DNA of 64,000 nucleotides from Candidatus Poribacteria bacterium (lineage in GTDB: Bacteria > Poribacteria > WGA-4E > WGA-3G): contig OY282386.1 of assembly GCA_958295945.1 (NCBI GenBank), positions 4,582,204-4,646,203 on the forward strand, written 5' to 3'. The translations under genes and the position numbers were made by a program. The notes beneath the pieces are model-generated. The model saw nothing but the letters and a program-made list of their open reading frames with translations, did not search any database and had not been told where the DNA came from. Positions 16,506-62,480 of this stretch are shown here, in pieces (positions within the stretch are counted from its first letter, which is position 1; every line of letters starts with the position of its first letter).

Positions 16506-16545
16506 ATTTCTTTCTCCTCTGGTCAATTGTTGGCAAGAATAAGTC

Positions 16546-17694
16546 TTACTGTTTTTCTTGCCACTGCTGTTTTTTCTGTTTCATTTCATCATTGAGGACA
16601 ATTTCAGATGAAGGTGTTTGGTTGGTTTCGTCAATAATCCAATGTCCATCTTCATCCTTCAGCACAGGTTTGCGTTGTTCAACTGGTAGGATGCCAAAAG
16701 GTTTATGCGGTTCTATCTGATACCAATATGCAACTGAAGAAGTCTCGTTGCTCAAGTGATTACCGTGTCCATGCTCAATGGTAACCCGTATCTCTTTCTC
16801 AAAACGGATAGGATTTTCAAGGTGATACACATAAGATGTCTGGTAACCTTTTGTATTGCTTTCGTGAATAGATGAACCGTTATGGGCAAATGCATTCCGT
16901 TGCATACCCCACGCCTGATTGAGATAGTCCTCTGAACCTGTGCCGTGTAAATCTGGAGGCCATTTATAGCCATCAATCCATATCATATCATCACCTTCAC
17001 CCCACCACGTGCCTTGAAAGTTGCTGACAGAAAGGTTACAACCAATATAGTGTCCTTTTCCTTCTGCGGATAGGATGAGATAGTTGTTGTCCCACGCGAG
17101 ACGTTCAGCATTGATGATATTCGCTTCCGCAGTGTTAACTGTGATTTCATGTCCCCATCCATCACAAGGATTTTCACGGTGGAATTGCGCGTGGAAATAG
17201 GCAGTCCCCTCACCGAATGGTATAGGATAAAGTTCGTAGTCAACATAAAAATATTGTCTGTGTGATGTCCCACCTTCGTTGACAAGTTCAATCCGTGCAG
17301 ATTGGTTGAACGGCATTTGTAAGTAGCAATTGAGCGCACATCCTGAATTAAACTGATTATTGTTGTGCGTAGAAGCCGAAAACGGAATAGAGTCGTAAGA
17401 GTTCACGATTTCGTTTCCAAGTCCAAAAAAATCACCCAATGGACACAAAACACTCGGATGTTCCTCATCGTCCCAAAACATCTGAATCAGAACGTTGCGA
17501 TAACCATTTGGTTGAGTCATCCAGATGTGATTAATACATCCTGGTCCTTTAATATCTGCCAATACGCGGGTTTCACCGGGTGCAATATCCCACGCATCGT
17601 TATTGCGTCCTGTTGTATCCCATGAGGAAGCGCGTCCAGTCCTAGCATCTTTCACTCGCGTCAACGACGACAATAATCCATTAACATAGTTCAT
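16546..17694 (-). CDS. DUF2961 protein, glycoside hydrolase family 172
   Basis: The 382-residue protein is a typical DUF2961 member: RASSWDTTGRNNDAW and PGCINHIWMT at the N-terminus, FWDDEEHPSV, PLGDFFGLG, and GTGSEDYLNQAWG in the second half. GH172 enzymes characterised elsewhere act on furanosides (fructofuranose, D-arabinofuranose) as trimers or hexamers. The substrate here is not predictable. No signal peptide is visible, so it is probably cytoplasmic or exported by another route. It is the first gene of a two-gene unit with the large acidic protein. A truncated duplicate of its 5' end lies at 19633-19719. Confidence 0.9.
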   Translation of the reverse strand: MNYVNGLLSSLTRVKDARTGRASSWDTTGRNNDAWDIAPGETRVLADIKGPGCINHIWMTQPNGYRNVLIQMFWDDEEHPSVLCPLGDFFGLGNEIVNSYDSIPFSASTHNNNQFNSGCALNCYLQMPFNQSARIELVNEGGTSHRQYFYVDYELYPIPFGEGTAYFHAQFHRENPCDGWGHEITVNTAEANIINAERLAWDNNYLILSAEGKGHYIGCNLSVSNFQGTWWGEGDDMIWIDGYKWPPDLHGTGSEDYLNQAWGMQRNAFAHNGSSIHESNTKGYQTSYVYHLENPIRFEKEIRVTIEHGHGNHLSNETSSVAYWYQIEPHKPFGILPVEQRKPVLKDEDGHWIIDETNQTPSSEIVLNDEMKQKKQQWQEKQ

Positions 17695-42943: not shown

Positions 42944-44033
42944 CAGGACTTACGCATTTTTATAAAATGGTGTATACTATTCTATTATGACTACATGGAC
43001 ACAATCTAAAAAGAAGGAAAACCTATTTTCCGATTATTGTCAATTTTTGTTATCAAGTTTTACGAACTGGACGCAAACGTACTTTGGTGATCAGTCTGAG
43101 AAATGGAGCCATGATCAACTCAATCGTTTTTTGAGAAATGAGAACATTCCATCAAGCGAACTCTGGCAGTCTGTCCAGGATGACATTGAGTTTGATGATC
43201 AAGGGCACATTGCTTTTGATGATGTTGTGCTACCTAAACCGCATGCGAAAAAGATTGAAGCTCTCCGTCCTCAGTGGAGTGGTAGCGACAAAAAAGTCGT
43301 TGATGGCATCGGTATTGTAACGTGTCTCTATGTCAACCCAAAGACGCAAGAGTATTGGATCATTGATTATCGCATTTACGACAAAGACCATGATGGAAAA
43401 ACCAAAATAGACCATTTATTAGACATGCTGCAAAACGCGGTCTTCAAAAAACAACTCCCGTTTCGGACGGTGCTAATGGATAGTTGGTATGCATCCATGC
43501 AAGTCATGAAAGCGATTGAAAAACTTTCTAAGATTTATTATGTGCCACTGAAACGCAATCGTCTTGTAAACGATACGGACGGCGTTGAACCACACCAACA
43601 AGTCCAAAAGTTATCTTGGACACAGACAGAAACGCAACACGGAAAGCACGTGCACATCAAGAAGTTTCCAAAAGGGCATCAAGTGAAGTTGTTCCGGTTA
43701 GTCTCCTCTAACGGACGCACGGAATATATTGCGACAAACGATTTATCTCAATCGGATGCGGATGCGACACGCCAAGAATGTCGCGTGCGTTGGAAGATTG
43801 AACAACTTCATCGTGAGATCAAACAAGTCACCGGTATTGGTAAATGTCAATGCCGCAAGTTGCGTGCCCAAAGAAATCATATTGCTTGTTGTTTTCAAGT
43901 ATGGGTCTGTTTGAAACGTGTTGCGCGCAAACATGGTAAAACAATTTATGAACTAAAACAAAGTTTATTGGATGATTATATGCGATTTCAACTCTCTAAT
44001 CCTTCAATAATTTTTAAAAATGCGTAAGTTCTG
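42944..44033 (+). mobile_element. IS701-like insertion sequence, 1090 bp
   Basis: The terminal inverted repeats are CAGGACTTACGCATTTTTA (left) and CAGAACTTACGCATTTTTA (right, complement), 18 of 19 identical. The 5-bp target duplication CCTAG flanks it at 42939-42943 and 44034-44038. It contains one transposase gene. The clean ends and intact transposase suggest a recent insertion into the giant gene, on the opposite strand. Confidence 0.92.
42987..44027 (+). CDS. IS701-family DDE transposase
   Basis: The 346-residue protein shows FDDVVLPKPHAKKIE, VDGIGIVTCLYVNPKTQEYW, the second acidic motif LMDSWYAS, and RWKIEQLHREIKQVTGIGKC with the third catalytic Glu. The ending RAQRNHIACC matches the same family. 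The D-D-E triad is intact and the frame is full length, so it should be active. The coding region ends inside the right terminal repeat. Confidence 0.9.
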   Translation: MTTWTQSKKKENLFSDYCQFLLSSFTNWTQTYFGDQSEKWSHDQLNRFLRNENIPSSELWQSVQDDIEFDDQGHIAFDDVVLPKPHAKKIEALRPQWSGSDKKVVDGIGIVTCLYVNPKTQEYWIIDYRIYDKDHDGKTKIDHLLDMLQNAVFKKQLPFRTVLMDSWYASMQVMKAIEKLSKIYYVPLKRNRLVNDTDGVEPHQQVQKLSWTQTETQHGKHVHIKKFPKGHQVKLFRLVSSNGRTEYIATNDLSQSDADATRQECRVRWKIEQLHREIKQVTGIGKCQCRKLRAQRNHIACCFQVWVCLKRVARKHGKTIYELKQSLLDDYMRFQLSNPSIIFKNA

Positions 44034-47000
44034 CCTAGTATCAACAATACCTGCAATGTGTGTCCATGTGTTGAGTTGGATTACATAATTTGATGGGAAA
44101 AGGCTTACATGACTTTCACCGTTAGGAGATGCTGCAAACTCTATGGTGCCGTCGTGCTTAAGATTTACGAAAAAAGTTCTACTCCTGAACTCAGTAAACC
44201 ATGTATGCGTCTTTGATAGTATAGGAGAATAATCTTTTGGATATTCATTGCATTTATACCATGCTGATACCGTTAATTGATCCGACATATTGTTTAAAAT
44301 CTCACTGTCATTGATTTCAACATAACTTCCATTGCCATCAAGTGAGAGTGCTGTTCCATCTATCACTTCACCTATTTCTTGTCTTTCATCTGGTAGGTTA
44401 TTATAGAGTTCCGCAAGTTTCTTATACCATTTGGGATTATTGGGTTGAAGTTCACTTATTGCCTCATACTGTTCGACTGCATTTTTGAACTGTTTTGCCA
44501 GTTCATAATTCTCAGCAAGCAGTAAGCGTGCATTAATATCATCCGGACGATTTTGGACGGTTTCAAGTTGTTTGGGAATCCATTTTTCATATAGTTTACC
44601 TTGCTGCGTAATCTCGAGAATTTCACTTTCAGCATTTCTTCTATCATATTCATAGTCGGTTGTTATTACGACCTGCCGATACATATTGACAGCATCTTCG
44701 TATTGTTTCTTGTTTTTGTATATTTCCCCAAGCATTGCCCATAAAGTCTCCTGAACTGTGCTATTGCCATAACTACGGTTTAACTCAAGAGCAGTTTGTG
44801 CGTGTTTGAGTGCTAAATCGTTCATGTCGTTCTGGAGACAAATAGAAGCGATATGACTAACGATGAATGTATCGTCTTTCTCCGGACTTGATGTGAATGC
44901 AGTTTCAGCTTTCTCAATAATTTCTGCAGCTCTAACTGGATGTCCACTCTTTTTCGCAGCTGCGGCAGCGTAGAAATAATTCCGTAAGTTGAAAGGTTGA
45001 ATTTTGTTTAGTGTTTGGTAAACTTCAGCAGCTTTTTTGTAATCTTCGCTATCCCAATGGATCTCTGCAAGTGTTTCAAGATAGTCCACCTTGTTCGGTC
45101 CACCTTGTTGGATTGCTTTGAGTTTGGCTTCGTATATTGTCTTCAGCTTCTCAAGTTTATTCTGATTTCTATAGATACGGATCAGCGTTTCACGTGCCCT
45201 TTTTGCATTTGATGAGACAGTGATACTTGTTGTTCCGTAAGAGGTTCTTCTTCTGGAATCAGCACGTAGAGCGATTTTATCATAAAGTTGTGTCGCTAAT
45301 TCGGTTTGATCATTTTCAACATATACCTCAAGTAATTCATTTGATAACCTATTCTTTTGATATGAATCTGTAGTCATATCAATGGCTTTCTTAAACGCTT
45401 CCACAGATTTTTCTGTGTTACCTGTATTAAGCAGATGTCGCGCTATTTGTGCCTGCTTATCCGATGTAAGCGGACCTTTTGCTTCTATATCCTTAAACTT
45501 TTCTTCTAACTTACCTTGATAACGATATATGTTTAGAATCTGTTCTTCAATATTATCTCTTTGGTAGCTTGATGTAGTGTTGAGTTGAAGTGCACTGTTG
45601 AAAGCATCTTCTGCCTTGACAAAATTATCTGTTCGCAGATACATATTTGCCAAATTGAGATAGGTTGTTCGGTTCCCTGGTGCCAATTCATTTACTTTCT
45701 CATATTGTTTGATTGCGTCATCAATTCGATTTTCATCAGCATATAGTTCTGCAAGTCTTAGGTAGTGTGCGCCAACTTCAGGTTCTTCCTGTGTGTATTT
45801 CTGTGCAAGTTCATAAGCATCGTTGAGTTTGTCAGCAGATTGAAGACATTGGACAAGTCCATCTTGGTATAATGTGTTTTCTGGGTCTAATTCAAGCAGT
45901 TCTGTCCATATTTGTTGGGACTTATCGTGTTGACCAATGCGTGTATAGAGATCAGCAAGTTGTCTGCGGGAGTCATAATCTTCTGGTGTGGTTTTGATGA
46001 TACGGTTGTATATCTGAATTGTCCTATCAACTTTACCAATGTATTCAAATTCATCTGCATAGGCTTGCTGCAAACTGATTGGCAGTTGTTTTATTTCCGC
46101 ATCAGTTATAACATCAAGATCACCACGTCGTTGTTTTATATCCAACAACTTTTCTTGAGAGTTACTTCGTTCATAACTTGTTGCGCCAAGATTGTTGATT
46201 ATTTCTGAATAGAGTGTTAGTGCATCGTCCCACATTTGATATTGCATATAAGTGGTTGCGAGTTTTCTCTTGTCATATATTCTGCCCCATCCATCTGACA
46301 TTGAAATGAGTTTTCCCATCTTTCGTGTTGCGATTTGTGCTTTTTCTATGTCACCTTTTTTAAGATGTTCCTCTGCAAGTTTTTGATAACCCTTTTCAAG
46401 TTGCCATGAGCTAATGTCTTCCAATTTTTGGACAGCGGCTTCAATGAGACGGAACTGTAGTTCGGGCAGTTCTTTGTCTCTACAAGCATCTGACATATCA
46501 TATAACCACTGCGTGGAGATAGACGGGTTTACTTTTTCAGTCAGTTGATCAACAAGGTCTTGGACACCTTCAGTATCATCAGTTTTTAACTTCATAGAAG
46601 TTACGATATAGAGAAGATCAGTATCAGTCGGATTTTCAGCGAGTTTAGCTTGGTATACGTCAATTAGGTTGTGTAATTCATCGCCATTTTTATATATATC
46701 AGCAAGTTTTAGTACAAGAGGAATGGTTGATTTTGATTGTCCTTTTTCATTGATCTTATCTTTTAAGTAATTGACTGCTTTCTCAGAATTACCCGATGAC
46801 AGATAGATTTCAGCAATTTTGACAATGAATCCTGTTTCTGATAGTGATGTTCTATCACTTTTCTGCTTTTCAGTTAGAAACTGAATTGCCTTCTCAGGTT
46901 GACCAGCGTTGACATAGATGGATGCCAATTCTTGGTGGAGTGCTGTCCAGCTTGGATGTGTCTGTATAATCTTCTCAAATAACTTGATTGCATCTTCAGT

Positions 47001-50000
47001 TCTATTTTCAGTGAGACATCTGCGTGCGACAATAACAGTGAAATCGCTGCCAGCATATTGTCCAACAGGCATGATAATGTCATTTGTGATTGAAATAAGT
47101 TCATCAAATTTTCCTGCTTCAACGAACGCATCTATTGCGATGTCATGTTCGTAGTCTAATACACTGGAATTACTTTTCAATAGAATGGCGTAATCTGAAA
47201 TTGCATCTGTCGCTTTACCGTTTCGTTCTAACATTCTGACGTACTGTAGTCTGGTATTATTGTCCTTTGGTCGTAAGGCAAGTGCTGACTCATAAGCTTT
47301 TGTTGCTTTACCAATTTGATTTGAACGTTCATAGTGGACAGCCAATTTTATTTGTGCTTGAAATGAATCGGGTTTGTTTTGTGCATCTTCAACTAATTTA
47401 CTTTCATTATTCTCTTTATCCTGTGATGTGCGGTATAAATTTGCGGATTGAGAGATATTCCGTGATGATGCTGCTCTTCCACTTCTGTTGGAATTGTTAG
47501 AGAATTGCATTGCGCGAGTATAAAGTTCTTGACTATCTTTTGCTCTACCAAGTGAGTTGAGATGGTAAGCTAAATTTGTCAAGAGAGAGGTGTTTCTCTG
47601 TTTCATAACTATTGACTTGGCTTTTAATGCAAATGTAATTGCATGCTGTGTAAAACCACGGTCATCAAGCATATTAGAAAACTGGTATAGGACATCGGCA
47701 CTATATGAAGAATTTAGTATTTTTGGAATTAGCTTTCGTAATTTATCCATATCACCCAATTGTGTAGCAAGTTCCAACATCAATTCGTAGTATTGGAGTT
47801 GTTTACTTGCATCTACCTGTGCAAGTTCTTCAACAATATTCATTGCTTCACGTATATTTCCAGTCTGAATATAGAGTGCTGCAGTATTGTGCTTGAGAAT
47901 GAGGTTATCAGGGAATTCATTCTGTAGTGAAACAAGAATATCTTTAGCATTCTGTTGTTTTCCATCCCACCAATAGCAGTATGAGAGTGCTAAACTCGGA
48001 TATAGAAGGTTGTTACCTTCGGTTGTATCAAACACATTTTGGAGTTTTGAATATAAGACATTTGCTTGATTGTGTATCCAGAACTCCCGGAAATTGTATT
48101 CAAGGAAGTCTAATCGGTCTTGGTTGAAGTATGCTGATTGTGGTGGAAAGTTTGTTGGTAATGAACTATACCCACTTGTAAATGAGGACTGTGAAAGTAA
48201 GGAGATTCGTCTTGGGTGGACAGATTTGGGTTTTGTTTTCTCAAAGAATACCCAGAAGGTGTCAATTGCCTTTTCAGGTTCTCCTTTGTCAAGGTAAGTT
48301 TTAATGAGATGTTCAAATAAGTATTCATAACTATATAGACTTTGTGAAGGTGGAGGAGGCGCGAGCGTCATGAGGTGTTTCTTTGCTACATCGGTCTTTT
48401 CTGCAAGATTAAACGCCATGACAAAAGCATAGACGGTATCAAAATTAGAGATTTCTTCATTTTCTATTTCACTTAGAAGTTTATTGGCTTGGTCTTCATC
48501 CCCTTTACGAAACAGTGATTCTGCATATTTTGCCATAAATTGCAAGCGATCCTCAGACGTAATTGCAGGTAATTCCGCAATTCTATCTTTGAACTTATCA
48601 GGTGTTAGGTCTTCGTTCAGCACACGTTGAAGTCGTAAGTATCGGTATGCAGTATCGTTAGATGTGATATCAATCAACTTGTCAACAACTTCGTCTGTCT
48701 TATCATCATACTGAAGTAGATCATATAATCTTGCTAAGGTTACGTGTGCATTGACATCAGTTGGATTTGCATCGGCAGCATCCTGCAATTTATTGACGAG
48801 ATCTTTCACTCTTCCTTGTTCTTGTGCAATTGTTGTCAGTTGTACCAGTGCACCAATTTTCGCATCGTCTAATGTCTTTGGTCTCCATCGGACTCTACCT
48901 GTTCCTGTGGTTGGCTTACTCTGAATATCTGAGATAGTTCTGCGTGATACTGTGAAGTAATTGTGATTTATAATGTTTGCGTTTGTTGCGGATTGATCGG
49001 CTGCTATCTGAGTTAAACTATCTGTATTTTCAGACATGTTTAGGATGGCATGGAAATAAGGGATTGCACGTTCTTTTTCATAGATAGCCACCAACATTGC
49101 ACCGACTTGATAGAGTGGGAGGTGTGCATCAGTGCCAGTGATTTTTTCAGCTGCGCGTTCTAATACGACAAATGCTTGTTCTTGCAGACCGTTACGTAGC
49201 AATAAAGATGCGAGTTTTACTTCTGCCTCAAGCGTCTGGTTTTTTGCATGCAGTAGTTTTGTCCAGACTTGAATTGCTTCCTGTTCTCGTCCAAGATCAA
49301 ACAGTATTTTCCCAAGCTGCTGCTGGTTGTCAGAATTGGGTTGTACTTTGACAAGCTGTTGTTGATATGTTAGTGCTTCCTGTATTTCATCCATCTCCAA
49401 GGTGATATTTACTAAGTGGAATAACAATGCGGGATTATCTCTTTGTCTGTTCAACGCTTGTGCCAATTGAAATTGCGCTCCTTCTATATTACCCTTCATC
49501 CGTTGAAGTTCGGATAGTGCAAGAACAGCCGCAACCCAAGTATTATTTGATCTTGCTAATTTCTTGAGTTCAGTTTTTAATTCTTCTGGACGACCAAGAT
49601 CGTCATATATTTCTGAGAGTGGTTTTATCAAATCAAGTTTTTCATTGACACTATCGCTGAGATTCCAACATCTCCAATATTGTGCCAAAGCGTGTTGCGG
49701 TTTTTCTGCGAGTAAATAAACCTTTGCTAATTCAATTCGTGTTTTAATTTCCTCTGGTCGTAATCTAATTGCATTTTTTAGACTATCAATTGCGGAATCA
49801 TAGTTTTCTGATTGGACAGCAATTTGTGCGAGGAGTTGATGTCCATCGGGATTGCGTGGACTATTTGCGATGACCTGTTTTGCAGTATCTGTAGCGGAAT
49901 CAAAATCAAAGATATTCAGATGTGACTTTGCAATTTTAGTATAATATTCGCGAGCATTTGCACTGTCTATCTCAATAAGGTGTGTGTAGATATCATTTGC

Positions 50001-51914
50001 TGCATCGCGTCTACCTTGACGATAGTATATGTCTGCAAGCCAACGGTTTATGGTGATGTCATGTGGCATCATCTCTTTAGTCTGTAACAGGACTTCCATC
50101 GCATAACTAATGTTCCCCATCTTCAGATACATCTTTACGAGCTGCTTCTGATGTGCGAAGCGTTCAGTTTTAGATAGTTCAGTCCTTTCAAGTTCTGTTT
50201 CTATTTCATTGATCTTCTCTGTGAGTGTTCCTTGTCTGCGATAGAGTTCAATCGCTCTATCATTCATCTTATCAGCAAAAAATTGATTTGGCGAAAGTTC
50301 CATCGCTGCGTTGTATTCAACAAGTGCTTTGTCATATTCTTCGTTCTCTGTTAGATATTTTGCTAATGTTTCTCTATAACTATATTCTTCTGGCATCAAC
50401 TCAGTAGCTTTTCGTATAGCTGCGATTGATTCTTTTTTGAAGTTTTTTGTCTTTAGTAGTTTTGCAAGACGATCATAGTTGGCAGCATTTGCTTTGTCGT
50501 CAGTAACCATTCTGTTCCAAGTCTCAAGTGCCTTCTCACGATTCCCTTGTCTTAGATAGAAATCACCAAAATACTCAATGTAATCCAGATTATTTGGGAC
50601 AAGAGACAGTGCCTTTTCATAATGTGATGTGGCTTGTTCAATCCATTCGTGTCCAGTATATATTTCAGCCAAGGTTAGATATGTGCTTGGATTGTCAGGG
50701 GATTGGTCAATCAAACGTTGATACACCTGTTCTGTTTTTTCACGGTCACCAAGTTGATGATAGAGTTCACCGAGTTCTCTGTATATACCGATATTGTCAG
50801 GATCTTGTTTGTTGAGGGTTTCATATTCGGTAGCAGCCTCATCAAACTTCTCTGCATATCGGAGTGAGGCAATCAGGTTTAGTCTTAGATTGGTGTCAGT
50901 GGGTGCGAGCTCTAATCCTTTGTGGTATGTCTTGATTCCTTCATCAAGTTGCTGATTCTCAATGTATGCAGCTGCGAGTAAACCGAGAAGTTCTGGGTCA
51001 TTCGGATTATCATCAAGTTTTTCTTTGTAATAATTTATCAATCCATCCCAATTGCTATCTGAAGCGAAGATGCCAATGATACGGTGTTGTATGTCTTTAC
51101 GTAACCAGTTGCCTTGTGCGGTAATTTCAAGCGCGGTGTCATATCTTTTCACAGCGTCTTGAATGTCACCTTTAATTTCAAGAATATTTCCGATTTCTCT
51201 GTGGCTCAAACAGACTCTGTACGGGTCGTCTTTCTTCAGTTTTATAATATCTTCATGTTGTGCGATAGCCTGTTGATAAAGTTCCTGTTCACGGAAGAGC
51301 TCAGCGAGTTCAATGCGTGCAAAGATGTCCATTGGATCGAGTTCAGCGATCTTTTGCCATGTCTGAATTGCTTCATCTACTCTATCACGATGAAAAAATG
51401 AGTATCCGAGATCTTGATATATTGATGTCAGTTCATCTGGAGGAACATCCTGGACTTTCTCTGACAGTTTGGCAGCCTTGCTCAATTCTATTATTGCTTC
51501 TTCATGTTTGCGTAGCGTTTTATATAACTTACCTAAAGCAAAATGTGGGTAGTAGTTTTCGGGTGCCAGTTCGACCGCGCGTTGATAGGAAGTGATGGCT
51601 TGTGTGTCTTTCCCAAGCCTTTTGTAAAGATGCCCTAAGATGAGCTGAAGATTTGGATTGTTAGGTTTATTTTGTGCCTCGGTTTGATATTCGTTGAGCA
51701 TTGCTTCTAAACCATCCCCTTCAAGATAGAACTGATAGAGGCGGTCAAAAGTGCTTCCTTCTTTTGGTTTACCAAGCAGTATCTGTTTATATCGTGAGAT
51801 GATGCTCTCATCGTTTACCGATTGCTGCGCGAAGGAGAACATTGGAATTAAGGAAAGTGCAAATATCAGACACAGAACGCATGTGAAATATGAATTGTTT
51901 ATTCTTTTTAACAT
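44004..51914 (-). CDS. N-terminal part of a giant secreted TPR/LamG protein, interrupted by an IS
   Basis: The 2636-residue frame begins with a signal peptide (MLKRINNSYF to SFAQ, about 1-29) and a perfect GGAGG upstream. Dozens of consecutive TPR units follow (for example LGHLYKRLGKDTQAITSYQR) up to about residue 2490. A LamG domain then starts (TALSLDGNGSYVEI, LTVSAWYK) and is cut by the IS at WTHIAGIVDTR; the last 11 codons are IS sequence. TPR arrays bind peptides or scaffold complexes; here they would be periplasmic or at the cell surface. Without the IS the protein would be 3398 residues. Whether the truncated form works is unknown. Confidence 0.9.
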   Translation of the reverse strand: MLKRINNSYFTCVLCLIFALSLIPMFSFAQQSVNDESIISRYKQILLGKPKEGSTFDRLYQFYLEGDGLEAMLNEYQTEAQNKPNNPNLQLILGHLYKRLGKDTQAITSYQRAVELAPENYYPHFALGKLYKTLRKHEEAIIELSKAAKLSEKVQDVPPDELTSIYQDLGYSFFHRDRVDEAIQTWQKIAELDPMDIFARIELAELFREQELYQQAIAQHEDIIKLKKDDPYRVCLSHREIGNILEIKGDIQDAVKRYDTALEITAQGNWLRKDIQHRIIGIFASDSNWDGLINYYKEKLDDNPNDPELLGLLAAAYIENQQLDEGIKTYHKGLELAPTDTNLRLNLIASLRYAEKFDEAATEYETLNKQDPDNIGIYRELGELYHQLGDREKTEQVYQRLIDQSPDNPSTYLTLAEIYTGHEWIEQATSHYEKALSLVPNNLDYIEYFGDFYLRQGNREKALETWNRMVTDDKANAANYDRLAKLLKTKNFKKESIAAIRKATELMPEEYSYRETLAKYLTENEEYDKALVEYNAAMELSPNQFFADKMNDRAIELYRRQGTLTEKINEIETELERTELSKTERFAHQKQLVKMYLKMGNISYAMEVLLQTKEMMPHDITINRWLADIYYRQGRRDAANDIYTHLIEIDSANAREYYTKIAKSHLNIFDFDSATDTAKQVIANSPRNPDGHQLLAQIAVQSENYDSAIDSLKNAIRLRPEEIKTRIELAKVYLLAEKPQHALAQYWRCWNLSDSVNEKLDLIKPLSEIYDDLGRPEELKTELKKLARSNNTWVAAVLALSELQRMKGNIEGAQFQLAQALNRQRDNPALLFHLVNITLEMDEIQEALTYQQQLVKVQPNSDNQQQLGKILFDLGREQEAIQVWTKLLHAKNQTLEAEVKLASLLLRNGLQEQAFVVLERAAEKITGTDAHLPLYQVGAMLVAIYEKERAIPYFHAILNMSENTDSLTQIAADQSATNANIINHNYFTVSRRTISDIQSKPTTGTGRVRWRPKTLDDAKIGALVQLTTIAQEQGRVKDLVNKLQDAADANPTDVNAHVTLARLYDLLQYDDKTDEVVDKLIDITSNDTAYRYLRLQRVLNEDLTPDKFKDRIAELPAITSEDRLQFMAKYAESLFRKGDEDQANKLLSEIENEEISNFDTVYAFVMAFNLAEKTDVAKKHLMTLAPPPPSQSLYSYEYLFEHLIKTYLDKGEPEKAIDTFWVFFEKTKPKSVHPRRISLLSQSSFTSGYSSLPTNFPPQSAYFNQDRLDFLEYNFREFWIHNQANVLYSKLQNVFDTTEGNNLLYPSLALSYCYWWDGKQQNAKDILVSLQNEFPDNLILKHNTAALYIQTGNIREAMNIVEELAQVDASKQLQYYELMLELATQLGDMDKLRKLIPKILNSSYSADVLYQFSNMLDDRGFTQHAITFALKAKSIVMKQRNTSLLTNLAYHLNSLGRAKDSQELYTRAMQFSNNSNRSGRAASSRNISQSANLYRTSQDKENNESKLVEDAQNKPDSFQAQIKLAVHYERSNQIGKATKAYESALALRPKDNNTRLQYVRMLERNGKATDAISDYAILLKSNSSVLDYEHDIAIDAFVEAGKFDELISITNDIIMPVGQYAGSDFTVIVARRCLTENRTEDAIKLFEKIIQTHPSWTALHQELASIYVNAGQPEKAIQFLTEKQKSDRTSLSETGFIVKIAEIYLSSGNSEKAVNYLKDKINEKGQSKSTIPLVLKLADIYKNGDELHNLIDVYQAKLAENPTDTDLLYIVTSMKLKTDDTEGVQDLVDQLTEKVNPSISTQWLYDMSDACRDKELPELQFRLIEAAVQKLEDISSWQLEKGYQKLAEEHLKKGDIEKAQIATRKMGKLISMSDGWGRIYDKRKLATTYMQYQMWDDALTLYSEIINNLGATSYERSNSQEKLLDIKQRRGDLDVITDAEIKQLPISLQQAYADEFEYIGKVDRTIQIYNRIIKTTPEDYDSRRQLADLYTRIGQHDKSQQIWTELLELDPENTLYQDGLVQCLQSADKLNDAYELAQKYTQEEPEVGAHYLRLAELYADENRIDDAIKQYEKVNELAPGNRTTYLNLANMYLRTDNFVKAEDAFNSALQLNTTSSYQRDNIEEQILNIYRYQGKLEEKFKDIEAKGPLTSDKQAQIARHLLNTGNTEKSVEAFKKAIDMTTDSYQKNRLSNELLEVYVENDQTELATQLYDKIALRADSRRRTSYGTTSITVSSNAKRARETLIRIYRNQNKLEKLKTIYEAKLKAIQQGGPNKVDYLETLAEIHWDSEDYKKAAEVYQTLNKIQPFNLRNYFYAAAAAKKSGHPVRAAEIIEKAETAFTSSPEKDDTFIVSHIASICLQNDMNDLALKHAQTALELNRSYGNSTVQETLWAMLGEIYKNKKQYEDAVNMYRQVVITTDYEYDRRNAESEILEITQQGKLYEKWIPKQLETVQNRPDDINARLLLAENYELAKQFKNAVEQYEAISELQPNNPKWYKKLAELYNNLPDERQEIGEVIDGTALSLDGNGSYVEINDSEILNNMSDQLTVSAWYKCNEYPKDYSPILSKTHTWFTEFRSRTFFVNLKHDGTIEFAASPNGESHVSLFPSNYVIQLNTWTHIAGIVDTRQNLRIFKNY

Positions 51915-54063: not shown

Positions 54064-54405
54064 TCATCCCCAAGTGGGTCTGTTTCCAGTTAATTTTTCT
54101 AAATAATCTGCTGATTTTTTTAGTTCTTCTTTGATTTTCTTTTTACCGCGTATCTTCTCTGCCTCTTCTGTTCTATATTTCACTCTGTATGAACCTTTGT
54201 AGTTGCGGCGCAGTGCAAATTCACCCGGAACATTTCTGTTTACATACGAAAGCATATTGTGCAGCAACCAATAAATATCAGTAGGAGAAAATTGCAAATG
54301 ACAATGTTCAGAATTTTCCTTGACAGCTTCCAAAGTGTCCTGCACAATATCCACAACTTCTGCAAGAGTATAGGCTTTGTTCTCTTCCAAATTAATGTGA
54401 TTCAT
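54064..54405 (-). CDS. Hypothetical protein, 113 residues
   Basis: I do not recognise this protein. It is helical and basic towards its end (KIRGKKKIKEELKKSADYLEKL), with a central SPTDIYWLLHNMLSYVNRN segment. No signal peptide, membrane helix or DNA-binding motif is evident. It starts 11 bases after the XdhC stop in the same direction, so it probably belongs to that transcript. Confidence 0.6.
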   Translation of the reverse strand: MNHINLEENKAYTLAEVVDIVQDTLEAVKENSEHCHLQFSPTDIYWLLHNMLSYVNRNVPGEFALRRNYKGSYRVKYRTEEAEKIRGKKKIKEELKKSADYLEKLTGNRPTWG

Positions 54406-54416
54406 AATTGTATACC

Positions 54417-55517
54417 TTATATTCTAATGGTAGGCATTTTTTCAGTTTTTGCTTCATAAGAATGTCCACTATTTCCACTATTGCGAACTTGTATTAGCTG
54501 CGATGCTATACTAACAGCAATTTCAGGTACAGTTTTGGAGTTTATATCTAAGCCAATTGGCGCATTCACGCGTTGTAGTTTTTCTTTTGGAATTCCAATT
54601 TCAAGCAGATCATCAAATATAAGTTTTATTTTCCTCCTGCTTCCAATTAATCCAATATATCGGGCATCCGATTCCACGACACTATGGAGTGCAGATTCAT
54701 CGTGTTGATGCCCCCTTGTAACAATAACAACATAGGTCAAATGATTCTTTGGATATTTCTTGAGTTCTTCAGCGATATCACCAATAATAATTTCGTCCGC
54801 TTCGGGTAACCGTTCTGATGAAGCAAAATCTGCTCTATCATCAACGATAACTATGTCAAAATCTAACCAGTTGCCGAGATGGCATAGTGCCTGTCCAACA
54901 TGTCCTGCTCCTGCAATGAGTAAAGTCGGTCTGGGTTGGAGCGGTTCAAGAAAGAGGGTCGTGGTATCATTCTGTTTGAAGATATCTGCTTTATTTTTTT
55001 CAAGGATATCGGTCATTTTGTCTTCTACATCCAATTCCAATGCAGGACTTCCTAATGTTCCAAATCGTTCACCATTGGAAGCAAATATCATCTTCAAGCC
55101 AACATTTGAATTTTGTTGATTGCTTTTTACAACCGTTGCACAGACAAGTGGCACCTTATCCGCACTTAGTTGTTGTAGTCGCGTGAATAAGTCTGCCTCG
55201 GTGATTGTTCTCGGAATATCAATGAAGATTTTCATATTCCCACCACAGATTAGTCCATCATCCCAACCGTAGTCACTATCCAGTTGAAATTCCAAGAGTT
55301 GAGGCGTGCCATCTTGCATTAATCCGATAGCTTGTCGACGCGCTTCTGCTTCAACACATCCTCCTCCGAGGGTTCCGATGTTACGTAAGTCCGGAAGAAT
55401 CAGCAGTTTTGCCCCCGGTTTTTGTGGTGTAGAACCTTTGGTTTCAACCACAGTACAGTAGGCACCCACCTGATCGGATCCGATTAACTCTGGGATTTTT
55501 TGATATATTTTCTTCAT
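54417..55517 (-). CDS. XdhC/CoxI-family molybdoenzyme maturation protein
   Basis: XdhC-type proteins bind molybdenum cofactor and insert its sulfurated form into xanthine-dehydrogenase-type enzymes. The 366-residue product has the N-terminal XdhC/CoxI domain (VVETKGSTPQKPGAK, GTLGGGCVEAEAR) and a C-terminal Rossmann domain (LLIAGAGHVGQALCHLG, VVIVTRGHQHD, YIGLIGSRRK, NAPIGLDI). No molybdoenzyme subunits (XdhA/B, CoxL) are in the window, so its client must be encoded elsewhere. It follows the degenerate dehydrogenase gene by 86 bases. Confidence 0.9.
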   Translation of the reverse strand: MKKIYQKIPELIGSDQVGAYCTVVETKGSTPQKPGAKLLILPDLRNIGTLGGGCVEAEARRQAIGLMQDGTPQLLEFQLDSDYGWDDGLICGGNMKIFIDIPRTITEADLFTRLQQLSADKVPLVCATVVKSNQQNSNVGLKMIFASNGERFGTLGSPALELDVEDKMTDILEKNKADIFKQNDTTTLFLEPLQPRPTLLIAGAGHVGQALCHLGNWLDFDIVIVDDRADFASSERLPEADEIIIGDIAEELKKYPKNHLTYVVIVTRGHQHDESALHSVVESDARYIGLIGSRRKIKLIFDDLLEIGIPKEKLQRVNAPIGLDINSKTVPEIAVSIASQLIQVRNSGNSGHSYEAKTEKMPTIRI

Positions 55518-55603: not shown

Positions 55604-56527
55604 TCAACTAAAGTTCTGTGATGTTGCACTTTGCGCGACCAGTTCTTTGAATTGTTCGCGCTGAGTGTCCGTTAGGTCTAAAGGTATTATTGATTCTATA
55701 CCGTTGCTTCCGATTTTTGATGGAACGTTGAGGAAAACAGAAGTCGTATCAGTAGTAATCAATGTGCCAACACTCATCACTCGTTTCTTATCCAGACTGA
55801 TTGCGGATAGTACTTGTAGAATATGACTTGATAATGTGTACTCATTTGCCGAAGTGTAGGGACAACGTTTTGAAACGACCTCAGATAGTTCTTGTATGTC
55901 AGATTCATTCATCAATTGTGATAACGGAATTCCATTAATCCTACAATATTCAGGTAGTGGATAAGTGACTTCGTCATTACCAATAGCCAAAGCAGAAATG
56001 TCATTAACTGAGAGACCGAGTCGATTTGTTATTTCTGCTTTTATATGAGCTGTAGAAACTCCATTAGCAATTCCAATGATGCCTTTCAATCCATTTGTTT
56101 GATGTATCCATGCTGCAATATGATTTGCATAAGGCATTGCAATCAATACAATTGCATTCTGGATCTTTTCCAGAATTTTCGGAACAATTTGGCGAGTCAG
56201 TGAGAGATTGGTCGTTTTCAAAGCGTGTGCAGCGTGAAAACCGAAGGGTAAGGACGCAGGTAGCAGGACAACAACTTGTGAATCGGATAGTTCCTCTGAT
56301 GAACTTGCAATACTTATTTGTGTGTCACTGGGACTCACTGCGGCTGCTAAAGTGAGATCTTCAATTCCATCTGCTAAAGACTTACGATTTGATGCGCCTC
56401 GGGTGACTTGTTTTATTCCGGCTTGTGAACCTGAGAAAATGACAATATGCTGTGCTAACTCATTTTGAGATATACCCCAAGCTACCGAAAGTGCTAAATG
56501 ACTGTTTCCTATCAATGATATTTTCAT
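55604..56527 (-). CDS. Degenerate lactate/malate dehydrogenase-like protein, probably inactive
   Basis: The 307-residue protein follows the lactate/malate dehydrogenase fold from end to end (MKISLIGNSHLALSVAW; QVVVLLPASLPFG; IVLIAMPYANHIA; IIGIANGVSTAHIKAEI; YPLPEYCRINGIPLSQL; FLNVPSKIGSNGIE). Key positions are altered: GxGxVG reads GNSHLA, the NP of the substrate loop reads MPYAN, the substrate arginine region reads VSTAHIK, and the catalytic GxHG histidine reads GNDE. It therefore lacks catalytic residues and may bind nucleotide or act as a partner. Its ATG overlaps the stop of the 932-residue gene. Confidence 0.7.
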   Translation of the reverse strand: MKISLIGNSHLALSVAWGISQNELAQHIVIFSGSQAGIKQVTRGASNRKSLADGIEDLTLAAAVSPSDTQISIASSSEELSDSQVVVLLPASLPFGFHAAHALKTTNLSLTRQIVPKILEKIQNAIVLIAMPYANHIAAWIHQTNGLKGIIGIANGVSTAHIKAEITNRLGLSVNDISALAIGNDEVTYPLPEYCRINGIPLSQLMNESDIQELSEVVSKRCPYTSANEYTLSSHILQVLSAISLDKKRVMSVGTLITTDTTSVFLNVPSKIGSNGIESIIPLDLTDTQREQFKELVAQSATSQNFS

Positions 56528-59322
56528 ACTGCATGTTCCTGTAATAATGTATCAACAATCTCTTGAAAGCAAGATTCAAGATTTTCACGTTGCATATCCA
56601 TATCCGATTCTGCTACAAGTTTAGTATCAAGTAGTTTGTCATATCGTTCAACGAATTCCATTAATTGTTCAACCTCTTTTTCATAGCATACAGCAGAAGT
56701 TAATACCTTTTCCTTGACTATAACGGGTAGTTCCTCAGAGGTAATCTGAGTTAATTCCCATCTCCATACTTTTTCAGATATATAAGATGTGAATTTATCT
56801 AAAACTTCACCCTGATAACTGCTTTTCTGAAGTTCTTTAACCTCTTGAATTAATCCTAAGACTTGATTGAATAGATCATCGGAAAGTAATTTTCGAAGTT
56901 CCATTATTATCCGTCCGGTTGTGGAAATCGGCAATTTGTTCTGTAGCAGAAACACCCGTAGATTCGGATAATCATCCAAAGTTCTTACATCAGTAAGCCA
57001 AGTCTCACCGATTGAAGGGAGGTCATCCAGATCAAAACTTAGTACTTGTTGCTTTCGAATCTCTTCGATTTCAGAACCATTTCTCTTGATTCCAGCGTCT
57101 GCCAGTATGCTGATGACTTCGGATTCACTATAGGGTTTTAAGAAGGAGATCATATCACCCACTTTTTTCTGTTCTGCTTGAATTGTTTCAAAGGTTACTT
57201 GTCCGTTGTTTTTTGGATTAACATTGCTACGTTTTTGTTCCTTACGTTGTAGACTTGTCAATCTGCTTGCACGTTTTGCGAGTGTTTCATCATATCGAAT
57301 CAATTCTTCACGTAAAAGGGAGAGCGTAACATCTCCATGAATTGCAAGTTTCTCAGTCGTCGTAATTTCATGTAAGTTGTGTCCAGTTTTCGACATAACA
57401 ACTTTATTTAAGTTGCGTTCCAAATACTTACGATCCTTTTCATTTTCAACGACCATCTGACTACTTAAGGTAAGATTCATCAGACGTTTAGTCTGATCGG
57501 GCACACTGATATTGATGTCGCATACCGGTTCAAAATCCGATATTAATTTCTCACGTGTTTTTCCATTGAGGATTAGACTCCACAAAGTTGCATAGTATGC
57601 ACTCAATTTTTCAGAATCAATAGGAGTATTCTCAATCCACATTTTGATAATGAAATTATGGTCATGAATTTGATGAATAATTTCTTGAAGTTCTACATCG
57701 CTAATCTCAAATCCAGGAAATTTTGCTGTTTTCCGGTTCGATTGGTTTTTCCGATAGTTAGATGAAGACTTGGTTGATGATATTATGGTCTCAATCGGTT
57801 GAATAATCTGCTCAAAATCCTGTTTGTGTTGACTTGCAAAGTTCGCTATATCAAGAAGATTTAACCATAAGTTTCGTAACCTTTCAATTTGCTGTGGATA
57901 GAAACTTGAACGTAAAGTTAAACGTGTCATTTTTTCACGTACTGTTCCGGATGTCCATTCTGGCAAAGGTATTATTTCTTGTAATACATCATTGGAATAG
58001 ATCTTTAAATCAACTGAAGTAACAAGTCCAGATGCGATAAAATCGGTTTCAAAAACGAGGTCATGGAATAATGCATTGGCATGTTCAACGACCTGATTTG
58101 TCAAAACATAACTTGACTGAATCATTTGGTTATGTGTCAGTTGTTCATTCTCTTGTAGCTGCCAATGTTCTATTATCGGTTCAATTTTCTTTCTAAGAAG
58201 TTGCGTTGTCTCTCTTGAGACATCCTCCTCAAAATGTTCTGTCAGATATTCAGCGTAGAAATCACAAAATGTATTCAATGTATTCAACAATTCACGAATG
58301 ACAAGGTCGTCCCAAACTTTATTATGAATCCGTTGACCTTTATCCAGCATGAGTGCTTTCAGACGACTCTCAACCCCTTGTTGGTATTGCATTATCAATT
58401 GATATGCATGGGGATTTGCTTTGACCATATAATTATCAATTTTTTCTGAACACCTACCAATTGCGTCTTCAATTTCTTTTGTTGCTGCATTGAATTCAAT
58501 TGGTTTTAACTTGATTGCGTTGGGTTCAAGTGAATTTAGAACTGCAGCAGTAGGCAGAATTCTCACTTTTCTATTCGATTCAGTTTCTGATTCCTCAACA
58601 AGTCGTGAGTGTAAAGCTAAAGTGTATTCTAAATCAAGAAGATCAGGATACTGTTTGTCGAGTGTCCGTATGACAACCAGTGCAGTATCGTATCCCTCTT
58701 CCCCAATTTCTGCAAGCATTTCATCTTCGTTGAGATGCACTCTGTTAATGTGGGTCTGTTCTGGAATAATTACCTTTGCAGAATTACTATCAGTATCTTC
58801 TGAGTTTGTTAGTATATACCCTCCTGTTTTAATATTAGTTGGTAATGACAAACGTACTTGCAAGACTTCTTCAGCGAGTTCAGTGAGTGTCAACGATTTT
58901 CCTAAATGTTGAACAATGATGTTAGTAATCACACCGTCAGCAAAATCAGTGATTTGCCTGGTATTACGTTCTAACTCCTGAACACTCTTGTGAACGCGGT
59001 CATAATCGTCAATTGCAATAGCTTGAACCATTGTCTCATCAATCCAGGATATCCATGCCCCTGGTCTATACTTCACTTTTAGAGTAAGATCGCCGTCTTT
59101 TGAGTCGAATCCGGGAAGGATTGTGTTTTCGGATGATTTCTTCGGTGTCCAGATTATAAGATGCTTAGTGTTTTTGCTGTCGAGAGCTAATCCAAAAGTA
59201 TCCCCCCAACTTATTCTTCCTTCAAGACTGGCTTTGATTTTATCAGTTAAAGTAAAGAGTGAGTCAGTGTTTAAATCAAGTGATATATCATACATTGCGT
59301 CAATTAGACAGTCCCTCCACAT
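56524..59322 (-). CDS. Unknown 932-residue helical protein
   Basis: I do not recognise this protein. It has no signal peptide or membrane helix. The first 150 residues look alpha/beta (ISLDLNTDSLFTLTDKIKAS, HLIIWTPKKS). The rest is mainly helical with several Leu/Glu-rich segments (for example ELVIRE-like helices and LLREELIRYDETLAKRASRL) and a charged loop near 520-540 (SSSNYRKNQSNRK). The overlap with the degenerate dehydrogenase gene (ATGA, 56524-56527) shows tight coupling. The ATG at 59322 has no ribosome-binding site; an in-frame ATG at 59295 also exists, with GGAGG 17 bases upstream. Function unknown. Confidence 0.75.
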   Translation of the reverse strand: MWRDCLIDAMYDISLDLNTDSLFTLTDKIKASLEGRISWGDTFGLALDSKNTKHLIIWTPKKSSENTILPGFDSKDGDLTLKVKYRPGAWISWIDETMVQAIAIDDYDRVHKSVQELERNTRQITDFADGVITNIIVQHLGKSLTLTELAEEVLQVRLSLPTNIKTGGYILTNSEDTDSNSAKVIIPEQTHINRVHLNEDEMLAEIGEEGYDTALVVIRTLDKQYPDLLDLEYTLALHSRLVEESETESNRKVRILPTAAVLNSLEPNAIKLKPIEFNAATKEIEDAIGRCSEKIDNYMVKANPHAYQLIMQYQQGVESRLKALMLDKGQRIHNKVWDDLVIRELLNTLNTFCDFYAEYLTEHFEEDVSRETTQLLRKKIEPIIEHWQLQENEQLTHNQMIQSSYVLTNQVVEHANALFHDLVFETDFIASGLVTSVDLKIYSNDVLQEIIPLPEWTSGTVREKMTRLTLRSSFYPQQIERLRNLWLNLLDIANFASQHKQDFEQIIQPIETIISSTKSSSNYRKNQSNRKTAKFPGFEISDVELQEIIHQIHDHNFIIKMWIENTPIDSEKLSAYYATLWSLILNGKTREKLISDFEPVCDINISVPDQTKRLMNLTLSSQMVVENEKDRKYLERNLNKVVMSKTGHNLHEITTTEKLAIHGDVTLSLLREELIRYDETLAKRASRLTSLQRKEQKRSNVNPKNNGQVTFETIQAEQKKVGDMISFLKPYSESEVISILADAGIKRNGSEIEEIRKQQVLSFDLDDLPSIGETWLTDVRTLDDYPNLRVFLLQNKLPISTTGRIIMELRKLLSDDLFNQVLGLIQEVKELQKSSYQGEVLDKFTSYISEKVWRWELTQITSEELPVIVKEKVLTSAVCYEKEVEQLMEFVERYDKLLDTKLVAESDMDMQRENLESCFQEIVDTLLQEHAV

Positions 59323-59410: not shown

Positions 59411-59989
59411 TCAGGTGATATTTTCCATATTCAATTCGTTCTTAATTTCAAGTCCCCATACGTCCCAACCTTTAACTTTCTTTCTTGCAAAAAGTTCAAG
59501 TTTATTCTGTTGCGGAAACATCTCATCAATCCGTTTACGCACCTCATCCGGTTTCTCTGAATGTTGATTACGTTGAGATTGTACAAGTTGCCTAATATTC
59601 CGCATTCCTCTTGGCTGAGGAATTGTTCCACGTTTAAAGACCAGACATAATTCACATTGGCTCATGGTATAGAATCCCGGGTTGACGCGGCATTTATCCC
59701 ACACAAATGCGACTGTTGCCCAACGAAATCCCCACGCTTTTCCTAACAGTATGGCTTGGTCAAGATGCGGGGATGTACTCCACATGAAGAGCAGACAGTT
59801 TTCTGAAGTAATGGATGAAATATTCCAATCAGCCATTTCAGTAACAGAAATGGTTGGATAATGCATTATTGCTCCACCACTATCTTTTCCACCTATTCCT
59901 GTGTGTTGCAGTTGACCTTTGTAGTCCCAGGGTGGATCTGCGTAGAGTATTTGATATTTTTTTTTCGGAAATGGCGGGTGCGAATTCAT
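59411..59989 (-). CDS. MT-A70-family adenine N6-methyltransferase
   Basis: The 192-residue protein has the MT-A70 signature ILYADPPWDYKG (DPPW at 18-21), then MHYPTISVTEMADW, LLFMWSTSPHLDQAI, VAFVWDKC and the closing KPDEVRKRIDEMFP...KLELFAR. In bacteria and phages such proteins methylate adenine in DNA, often as phage anti-restriction or orphan methyltransferases. No endonuclease is adjacent. It lies upstream of the 932-residue gene by 88 bases in the same direction. Target sequence unknown. Confidence 0.9.
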   Translation of the reverse strand: MNSHPPFPKKKYQILYADPPWDYKGQLQHTGIGGKDSGGAIMHYPTISVTEMADWNISSITSENCLLFMWSTSPHLDQAILLGKAWGFRWATVAFVWDKCRVNPGFYTMSQCELCLVFKRGTIPQPRGMRNIRQLVQSQRNQHSEKPDEVRKRIDEMFPQQNKLELFARKKVKGWDVWGLEIKNELNMENIT

Positions 59990-60256: not shown

Positions 60257-60805
60257 CTACTTTGCATCAACACTTAGCCCCTCCTGAACGATGTCGTTGT
60301 TTGCAACTAACATATCACGATCAAAGATAAAATCACTACGTTTGCCACCAAGTTTCTCACCCTCAGTTTGTTGTTCTCTGAAGTATTGTGGTAGCGTCAG
60401 TCCAGTCATGCGTATTGCGTCTTCAGGACATGCTTCAACACAATAACCACAGAAGATACAGCGGAGCATATTGATTTCAAATACATCCGGGTATTTTTCA
60501 CGTTGGTAACCTTCTTTAGTTGTCCAACCTTCTGGAGCAGGTGCTGCCTGTATTGTAATGCAATCAGCAGGACAAGCAGTTGCACATAAGAAACATGCAA
60601 CACACTTGATTTCATCTTTTTCAGTCTTGGTTAATTTGTGGATACCTCGATAGCGGTCATTTCGTTCATTGACACTTCGAGGATCTTCAGGATATTGGAC
60701 GGTTAATTTCTTTTTTGGGATGTGTTTCAACGTTGTGAACATCCCCTTAAGCAATGCTGGGATATAGAGTCTATCCCAAAATGACATCTCTTCGTTAACT
60801 TTCAT
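60257..60805 (-). CDS. nuoI: NADH-quinone oxidoreductase subunit I (NuoI)-like ferredoxin
   Basis: The 182-residue protein has two 4Fe-4S clusters: KCVACFLCATACP and RCIFCGYCVEACP, spaced as in NuoI, preceded by a helical N-terminus (FWDRLYIPALLKGMFTTLKH) and RYRGIHKL. In complex I, NuoI passes electrons between clusters N6a and N6b. No other nuo gene is nearby, although some bacteria scatter nuo genes. It lies 38 bases after guaB, and co-transcription is likely. The C-terminal tail (DRDMLVANNDIVQEG) is a little longer than usual. Confidence 0.85.
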   Translation of the reverse strand: MKVNEEMSFWDRLYIPALLKGMFTTLKHIPKKKLTVQYPEDPRSVNERNDRYRGIHKLTKTEKDEIKCVACFLCATACPADCITIQAAPAPEGWTTKEGYQREKYPDVFEINMLRCIFCGYCVEACPEDAIRMTGLTLPQYFREQQTEGEKLGGKRSDFIFDRDMLVANNDIVQEGLSVDAK

Positions 60806-62358: not shown

Positions 62359-62480
62359 CTATATATTGATTATGGTGGGTGAGTATGGTTCGCTATTCTT
62401 ATTCTAAAATATGCTTGCCAACTATCTTAAATTATAGCATATTGTCGTATTTATGTCAAAATATTTTGAATATAAAGGAT

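Follow-up and report, generated by a model that had tools for sequence, protein, structure and literature searches.

To our knowledge, pseudoenzymes with the fold of lactate and malate dehydrogenases (LDH/MDH) have rarely been recognised in bacteria. The closest described relatives of the protein treated here are the canonical enzymes of the LDH/MDH family (PRK06223 type), which it resembles in fold and in sequence over its full length, and from which it differs by the absence, in all 60 orthologues analysed, of the catalytic His, of Asp168, Asn140, the second loop Arg and the third Gly of the P-loop. This protein of 307 residues, here called pMDH, is encoded on the minus strand at 55604..56527 of a 64,000-nucleotide stretch of contig OY282386.1 from a Candidatus Poribacteria bacterium (the window; the genome containing it is one contig of 5.34 Mb). 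Immediately upstream, on the same strand (56524..59322), lies the gene of a 932-residue protein belonging to an orphan family confined to Poribacteria. The two genes stay adjacent and co-evolve, and pMDH, judged by its residues, is unable to act as a canonical MDH. In the reading that we favour, which has about an even chance of being right, pMDH is an MDH paralogue kept as a non-catalytic subunit, complexed with the 932-residue protein as scaffold in three of the four families of Poribacteria that carry it (f1, f2 and f4), and regulating or assembling another protein.

The identity of pMDH was established by open reading frame (ORF), family, fold and alignment searches. Comparison with the NCBIfam model PRK06223 gave an E value of 3.7e-28, yet the score of 98.6 bits did not reach the curated cut-off of 283. 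Among PDB sequences the protein matched MDH 4plh (E 4.6e-19), and its structural model, with a predicted local distance difference test (pLDDT) score of 85.3, matched the fold of MDH 2hjr (E 6.1e-22, template modelling score 0.81). By these matches pMDH is related to malate dehydrogenase over its full length, and the LDH/MDH (Rossmann) fold is predicted to be retained in it.

In the window protein GNDE replaces GGHGD, VSTAH replaces LDSAR and GNSHLA replaces GAGNVG. To see these changes in context, 60 pMDH orthologues (the window's own, 56 that are complete at the related loci described below, and three from family f3) were aligned with 21 canonical MDH/LDH proteins of Poribacteria. His195, Asp168, Asn140, the second loop Arg and the third Gly of GxGxxG were kept in none of the 60, and all of them share the loss of one residue at the His loop. 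Retention was partial at Arg171 (1/60) and, as aligned, at the first loop Arg (9/60); in the NAD site the first Gly was present in 59/60, the second in 13/60 and the Asp at the end of beta-2 in 11/60. All 21 canonical proteins retained His, Asp168, Arg171 and the three glycines, and a canonical copy is present in the window's own genome (G000:C1:977830-978555). An earlier note on this DNA had described the protein as a pseudoenzyme lacking the catalytic His motif, the substrate arginine region and the usual nucleotide loop. The alignment agrees with it on each of these points, and the possibility raised there, that homologues might retain the catalytic residues and this copy be simply decayed, finds no counterpart among the 60 orthologues. 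The same note had proposed a regulatory or sensing role for the pair; this part gained no support, and the canonical NAD site is broken in 60/60.

The former active site is no longer under special constraint. Mean entropy over ten former active-site and cofactor columns was 1.50 in pMDH vs 0.03 in canonical MDH, the mean over all 289 compared columns of pMDH being 1.34, and the first Gly was the sole column of the ten that is still conserved. Since these columns are about as variable as the average column, no substitute active site appears to have been kept there. This also bears on the idea that pMDH is a ligand sensor, which would bind a nucleotide or another small molecule in an altered manner and signal through the 932-residue protein. 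The retained Rossmann fold (pLDDT 85 and the fold match) would suit such a function, as would the P-loop Gly that persists in 59/60 orthologues and the beta-2 Asp that persists in 11/60, but the third Gly is lost from every orthologue, the second is kept only in 13/60, and a conserved ligand would normally keep the pocket conserved, which the ancestral pocket is not. We consider the sensor rather unlikely.

The pairing of the two genes was followed over 58 loci related to the 932-residue protein, which were found among 84,980 species genomes and are all named Poribacteria. Both genes were present at 57 of the 58, in identical order and strand in 57/57; at the exception the contig ends within the large gene. 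The gap between them was at most 370 bp in 55/57 loci. At one locus (L091) an IS605/TnpB-like ORF (L091:10223-11512) is inserted between the two genes, and at another (L080) they are separated by four ORFs, one of them STT3-like. When 84 Poribacteria genomes were scored, with an E value below 1e-50 counting as presence of pMDH, 65 had both genes, three had pMDH only (family f3), one had the large gene only and 15 had neither. The 932-residue protein was thus present in 66/84 genomes, belonging to f1, f2 and f4; it was not found in f3 (0/3 genomes) or in twelve genomes outside the order. The single genome with the large gene and no pMDH (G021, 1/66) has a contig that stops inside the gene. One genome of the window's own genus, 90% complete (G008), has neither the 932-residue gene nor pMDH, XdhC or any match to canonical MDH, which may be an assembly gap or a joint loss.

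In the window the two ORFs share the four bases ATGA (56524-56527, minus strand), and the junction reads ...gcagtATGAaaa.... This overlap, on which the earlier note had remarked, is real in the window and is not conserved, as the gap is at least 5 bp in 54/57 related loci; the apparent overlaps of 44-50 bp at 3/57 arise because the longest ORF was taken as the gene. The true start of the 932-residue protein may be at codon 10 (59295), where many homologues begin. The earlier note had also allowed for a pair that is not conserved elsewhere, and the 57/58 loci speak for conservation. Its further suggestion, that the two proteins are coupled, is supported in f1, f2 and f4, where the pair is conserved and co-evolves, and is weakened by f3, where pMDH stands alone in 3/3 genomes. 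Its placing of an XdhC gene after pMDH and of an MT-A70 gene before the pair was correct (see below).

Evolutionary distances were compared between seven genes of the locus, using the window and the 34 of the 58 loci at which all seven are complete. With the other genes held constant, the partial correlation for pMDH and the 932-residue protein was 0.692 over these 35 genomes, which ranks first among 21 pairs (next 0.417). Within f1 it was 0.599, again in first place (next 0.435). When IMPDH and NuoI alone were controlled for, the value was 0.89 and was reached by 0/500 permutations; most other pairs pass the same permutation test, therefore it is the ranking that counts and not the permutation number. 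Taking into account that the two genes evolve in step, a joint non-catalytic complex is probable. An alternative would be chance synteny, with the two genes staying together and their products acting independently. The whole block (IMPDH, NuoI-like, XdhC, U113 and PhyH) is syntenic, so that adjacency alone is weak evidence, and f3 does without the large gene. Synteny does not, however, readily account for the first rank of this pair in both data sets, or for the 65 genomes with both genes and the 15 with neither, out of 84, and we regard it as unlikely.

Some residues of pMDH have become newly fixed: Asp185, Gln193, Cys195 and Arg196 and, in the C-terminal helix, Gln289, Phe293, Ser300 and Gln304. 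Cys is present in 60/60 orthologues at a position where 20/21 canonical proteins carry Thr. A new reaction, performed with Cys195, Asp185 and Gln193, could be imagined from this, the first two being found in 60/60 and missing from canonical MDHs. The new residues are few, though, and are located in the strand and loop beside the former His; pMDH showed no second cluster of conserved polar residues, and the conservation of the C-terminal helix favours a binding face, which makes a new catalytic function improbable. We infer that conservation distributed in this way is more readily explained by a binding surface than by a new active site within the old pocket.

Both genes are under purifying selection. 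In 12 pairs of near relatives for each gene, which were picked by hand and from which pairs missing a gene were skipped, the ratio of nonsynonymous to synonymous substitution rates (dN/dS) was 0.086-0.244 for pMDH and 0.078-0.168 for the 932-residue protein. A tree built from 18 pMDH and 21 canonical sequences split the two sets with a support of 100/100; this tree is unrooted and shows separation only, not time of origin, and PS_L064 and CAN_L192 form long branches in it. The shared residue losses, the split in the tree and the low dN/dS values together indicate that the loss in pMDH was old and shared, and was followed by constraint. The view that pMDH is a decaying duplicate of malate dehydrogenase, suggested by its evolving faster than its neighbours IMPDH and NuoI, was rejected and is almost certainly wrong, because the ORFs are intact in four families, 60/60 orthologues have identical losses and the same deletion, dN/dS is far below 1 and the pMDH group is separated from canonical MDH with full support (100/100).

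The 932-residue protein had no significant match in Pfam, NCBIfam, PADLOC or PDB sequences, in agreement with its earlier listing as a protein of no known family. The anti-phage defence profiles of PADLOC gave 0 families at E up to 1, and one scan of viral contigs revealed no relative. The structural model has a mean pLDDT of 69 and a predicted template modelling score of 0.44, with low confidence in residues 1-200. The earlier note had called the protein large and helical, which suits about two thirds of it: the model predicts helices for residues 280-932, and an alpha/beta structure for residues ~10-280.

Within the N-terminal third, residues 130-310 (58393..58935, minus strand) are predicted to be alpha/beta with a JAMM/MPN-like order of elements, to which sequence profiles lent no confirmation. 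In the model, residues 136-324 run beta-alpha-beta-beta-alpha-beta-alpha-beta-beta-alpha, which we take to be the JAMM topology. In a second look with VIA, 44 of the 50 matches listed came, by title, from MPN-containing assemblies (proteasome lid, COP9 signalosome, BRCC36/BRISC, EMC, 43S complex and JAMM1; Z 7.9-10.8, where values below 8, or below 13 for helical models, can be due to chance); of the others listed, four were BubCD, one was a plant complex and one was unrelated. As the VIA ranges span residues ~6-450, they are compatible with a domain formed by either of the beta-alpha-beta-beta segments at 10-60 and 140-185. Foldseek against viral models retrieved phage RadC proteins at a probability of 0.97, but with E values of 0.2 and 0.55, and against the PDB its best E was only 0.18.

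The zinc motif HxHP was found in 0/41 members of the family. The place that it has in JAMM proteins seems to be occupied by residues 219-230, which read R-T-H/L-x-x-x-Y/F-P-D-x-x-D. Arg219, Thr220, Pro226, Asp227 and Asp230 are invariant among the 41 members, and His221 is found in 39/41, the window's own protein having Leu. At the matching place RadC reads HNHP...PSxxD and JAB reads HSHP...FSxxD, with a spacing that is off by two residues. No JAB-clan match was among the 25 Pfam families listed for the 41 members at E up to 1, nor was any obtained with 21 subregions of the protein at E up to 10. In hhalign comparisons of ten stretches with shallow profiles made from Poribacteria sequences (JAB, 28 sequences; RadC, 20; canonical MDH, 21, as control) the probability was at most 3.4, the best being residues 130-300 vs JAB, and in the control with reversed alignment it was at most 0.50; the JAB set is shallow and includes one over-long ORF, so that these low values weigh neither for nor against the domain, and 2/30 rows without HxHP had been removed from it beforehand. 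For an inactive JAMM/MPN-like domain in the N-terminal third, which we predict at low confidence, the balance is about even.

The pair lies in a conserved block with the order IMPDH, NuoI-like ferredoxin, (MT-A70), large gene, pMDH, XdhC, 113-residue protein and PhyH. In the window, where the following genes are all on the minus strand, the upstream side holds a 4Fe-4S ferredoxin-type gene (60257..60805; 53/58 loci), presumably the NuoI-like member, and an MT-A70 methyltransferase (59411..59989; Pfam 1.8e-18). The XdhC-family gene (54417..55517; Pfam XdhC_C 3.3e-41; 51/58 loci) follows downstream and overlaps pMDH by 4 bp in 5/51 loci. Behind it comes the 113-residue protein (U113, 54064..54405; 48/58 loci), which has no family match and evolves at the same pace as pMDH. 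IMPDH was found at 48 and PhyH at 44 of the 58 loci, many of the missing members being due to contig ends. MT-A70 was rejected as a member of the unit, since it occurs at 44/58 loci and at 0/10 of those marked as the other two families. Elsewhere in the window a very long ORF of 2636 residues (44004-51914, minus strand) looks tetratricopeptide repeat-like by eye, and a sigma-70-like promoter (62431-62459, minus strand) with a 12/12 match and an extended -10 lies upstream of the IMPDH gene; over the region as a whole, promoter-like sites were no more frequent than expected.

The enzymes that XdhC proteins serve are molybdenum hydroxylases belonging to the xanthine oxidase family (PMC2997495). 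Genes for molybdenum hydroxylases were present in 37/39 genomes searched, and in a distant Poribacterium (G060) an XdhC homologue lies ~2 kb from one (G060:C184:12899-13936 and 15950-16609). As XdhC adjoins pMDH and molybdenum hydroxylases are widespread, we guess that the client is the maturation of these enzymes by way of XdhC, to which gene position points as the most plausible candidate.

Several observations weigh against a pMDH complex of this kind. The strongest objection to an obligate pair comes from family f3, whose 3/3 genomes hold pMDH without the 932-residue protein; there, either pMDH acts without it or the partner is unrecognisable. At two f3 loci (pMDH at L062:8158-9087 and L063:8019-8918) the order is NuoI-like, pMDH, XdhC, the slot of the large gene is empty and pMDH overlaps XdhC by four bases. 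Fast genes that share tree signal can give rise to a rate correlation; U113, which evolves as fast as pMDH, correlates less with it. As to the client, other families have XdhC but no pMDH, none of the three molybdenum hydroxylase genes of the window genome is near the window, and the proximity of XdhC proves little because unrelated genes (IMPDH, phytanoyl-CoA dioxygenases) share the gene order.

Under the non-catalytic subunit reading, an MDH paralogue would have given up both catalysis and the canonical NAD site no later than the base of the pMDH group, and would then have been retained as a binding or structural subunit. In f1, f2 and f4 its partner would be the 932-residue protein, the two probably forming a physical complex. 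The large protein would provide the scaffold, long and helical, with an N-terminal third that may represent an inactive JAMM/MPN-like domain. Such a complex would most likely regulate or help assemble another protein instead of catalysing, and from gene order one might guess that it serves the XdhC-dependent maturation of a molybdenum hydroxylase. A more specific version, with two dead enzymes (a JAMM/MPN-like domain on a helical scaffold, and MDH) forming an assembly or regulatory platform of Poribacteria, perhaps for molybdenum hydroxylases, is put forward tentatively and is itself doubtful. What is new here is a pseudo-MDH whose co-evolving partner belongs to no recognised family. It is fixed across four families of one phylum while a working MDH sits elsewhere in the genome, so that the annotation 'malate dehydrogenase' would be wrong for it, and with its partner it makes a pair open to concrete tests, in a phylum that is associated with sponges and uncultivated.

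The nearest parallel to the N-terminal part of the 932-residue protein appears to lie in the inactive MPN- subunits that act as scaffolds, for example CSN6 and Rpn8. It is likened to JAMM/MPN proteins by the predicted order of elements, the VIA matches and the RadC hit of Foldseek (probability 0.97); it differs from them in the motif HxHP (0/41), in the lack of a sequence-level match and in Foldseek E values that all exceed 0.1. In the open-access literature, subscription journals and preprints being outside the scope, no description of the pair was met, and the accessible part of PMC5087111 did not contain the word 'malate'. The XdhC family (PMC2997495) is represented directly downstream of pMDH, but neither pMDH nor the 932-residue protein is an XdhC itself, and the part of that paper available mentions no partner resembling either. 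Human UEVLD, which combines a UEV with a lactate/malate dehydrogenase domain (PMC12513931, as far as the accessible text goes), likewise joins an LDH/MDH-like unit to a dead enzyme domain. It does so in one fused chain with a dead E2, whereas the Poribacteria pair consists of two separate genes, and no UEV family was among the Pfam matches listed for the 932-residue family, so the likeness is a parallel only. If the complex of two dead enzymes is true, it would parallel the eukaryotic reuse of dead MPN, E2 and LDH folds.

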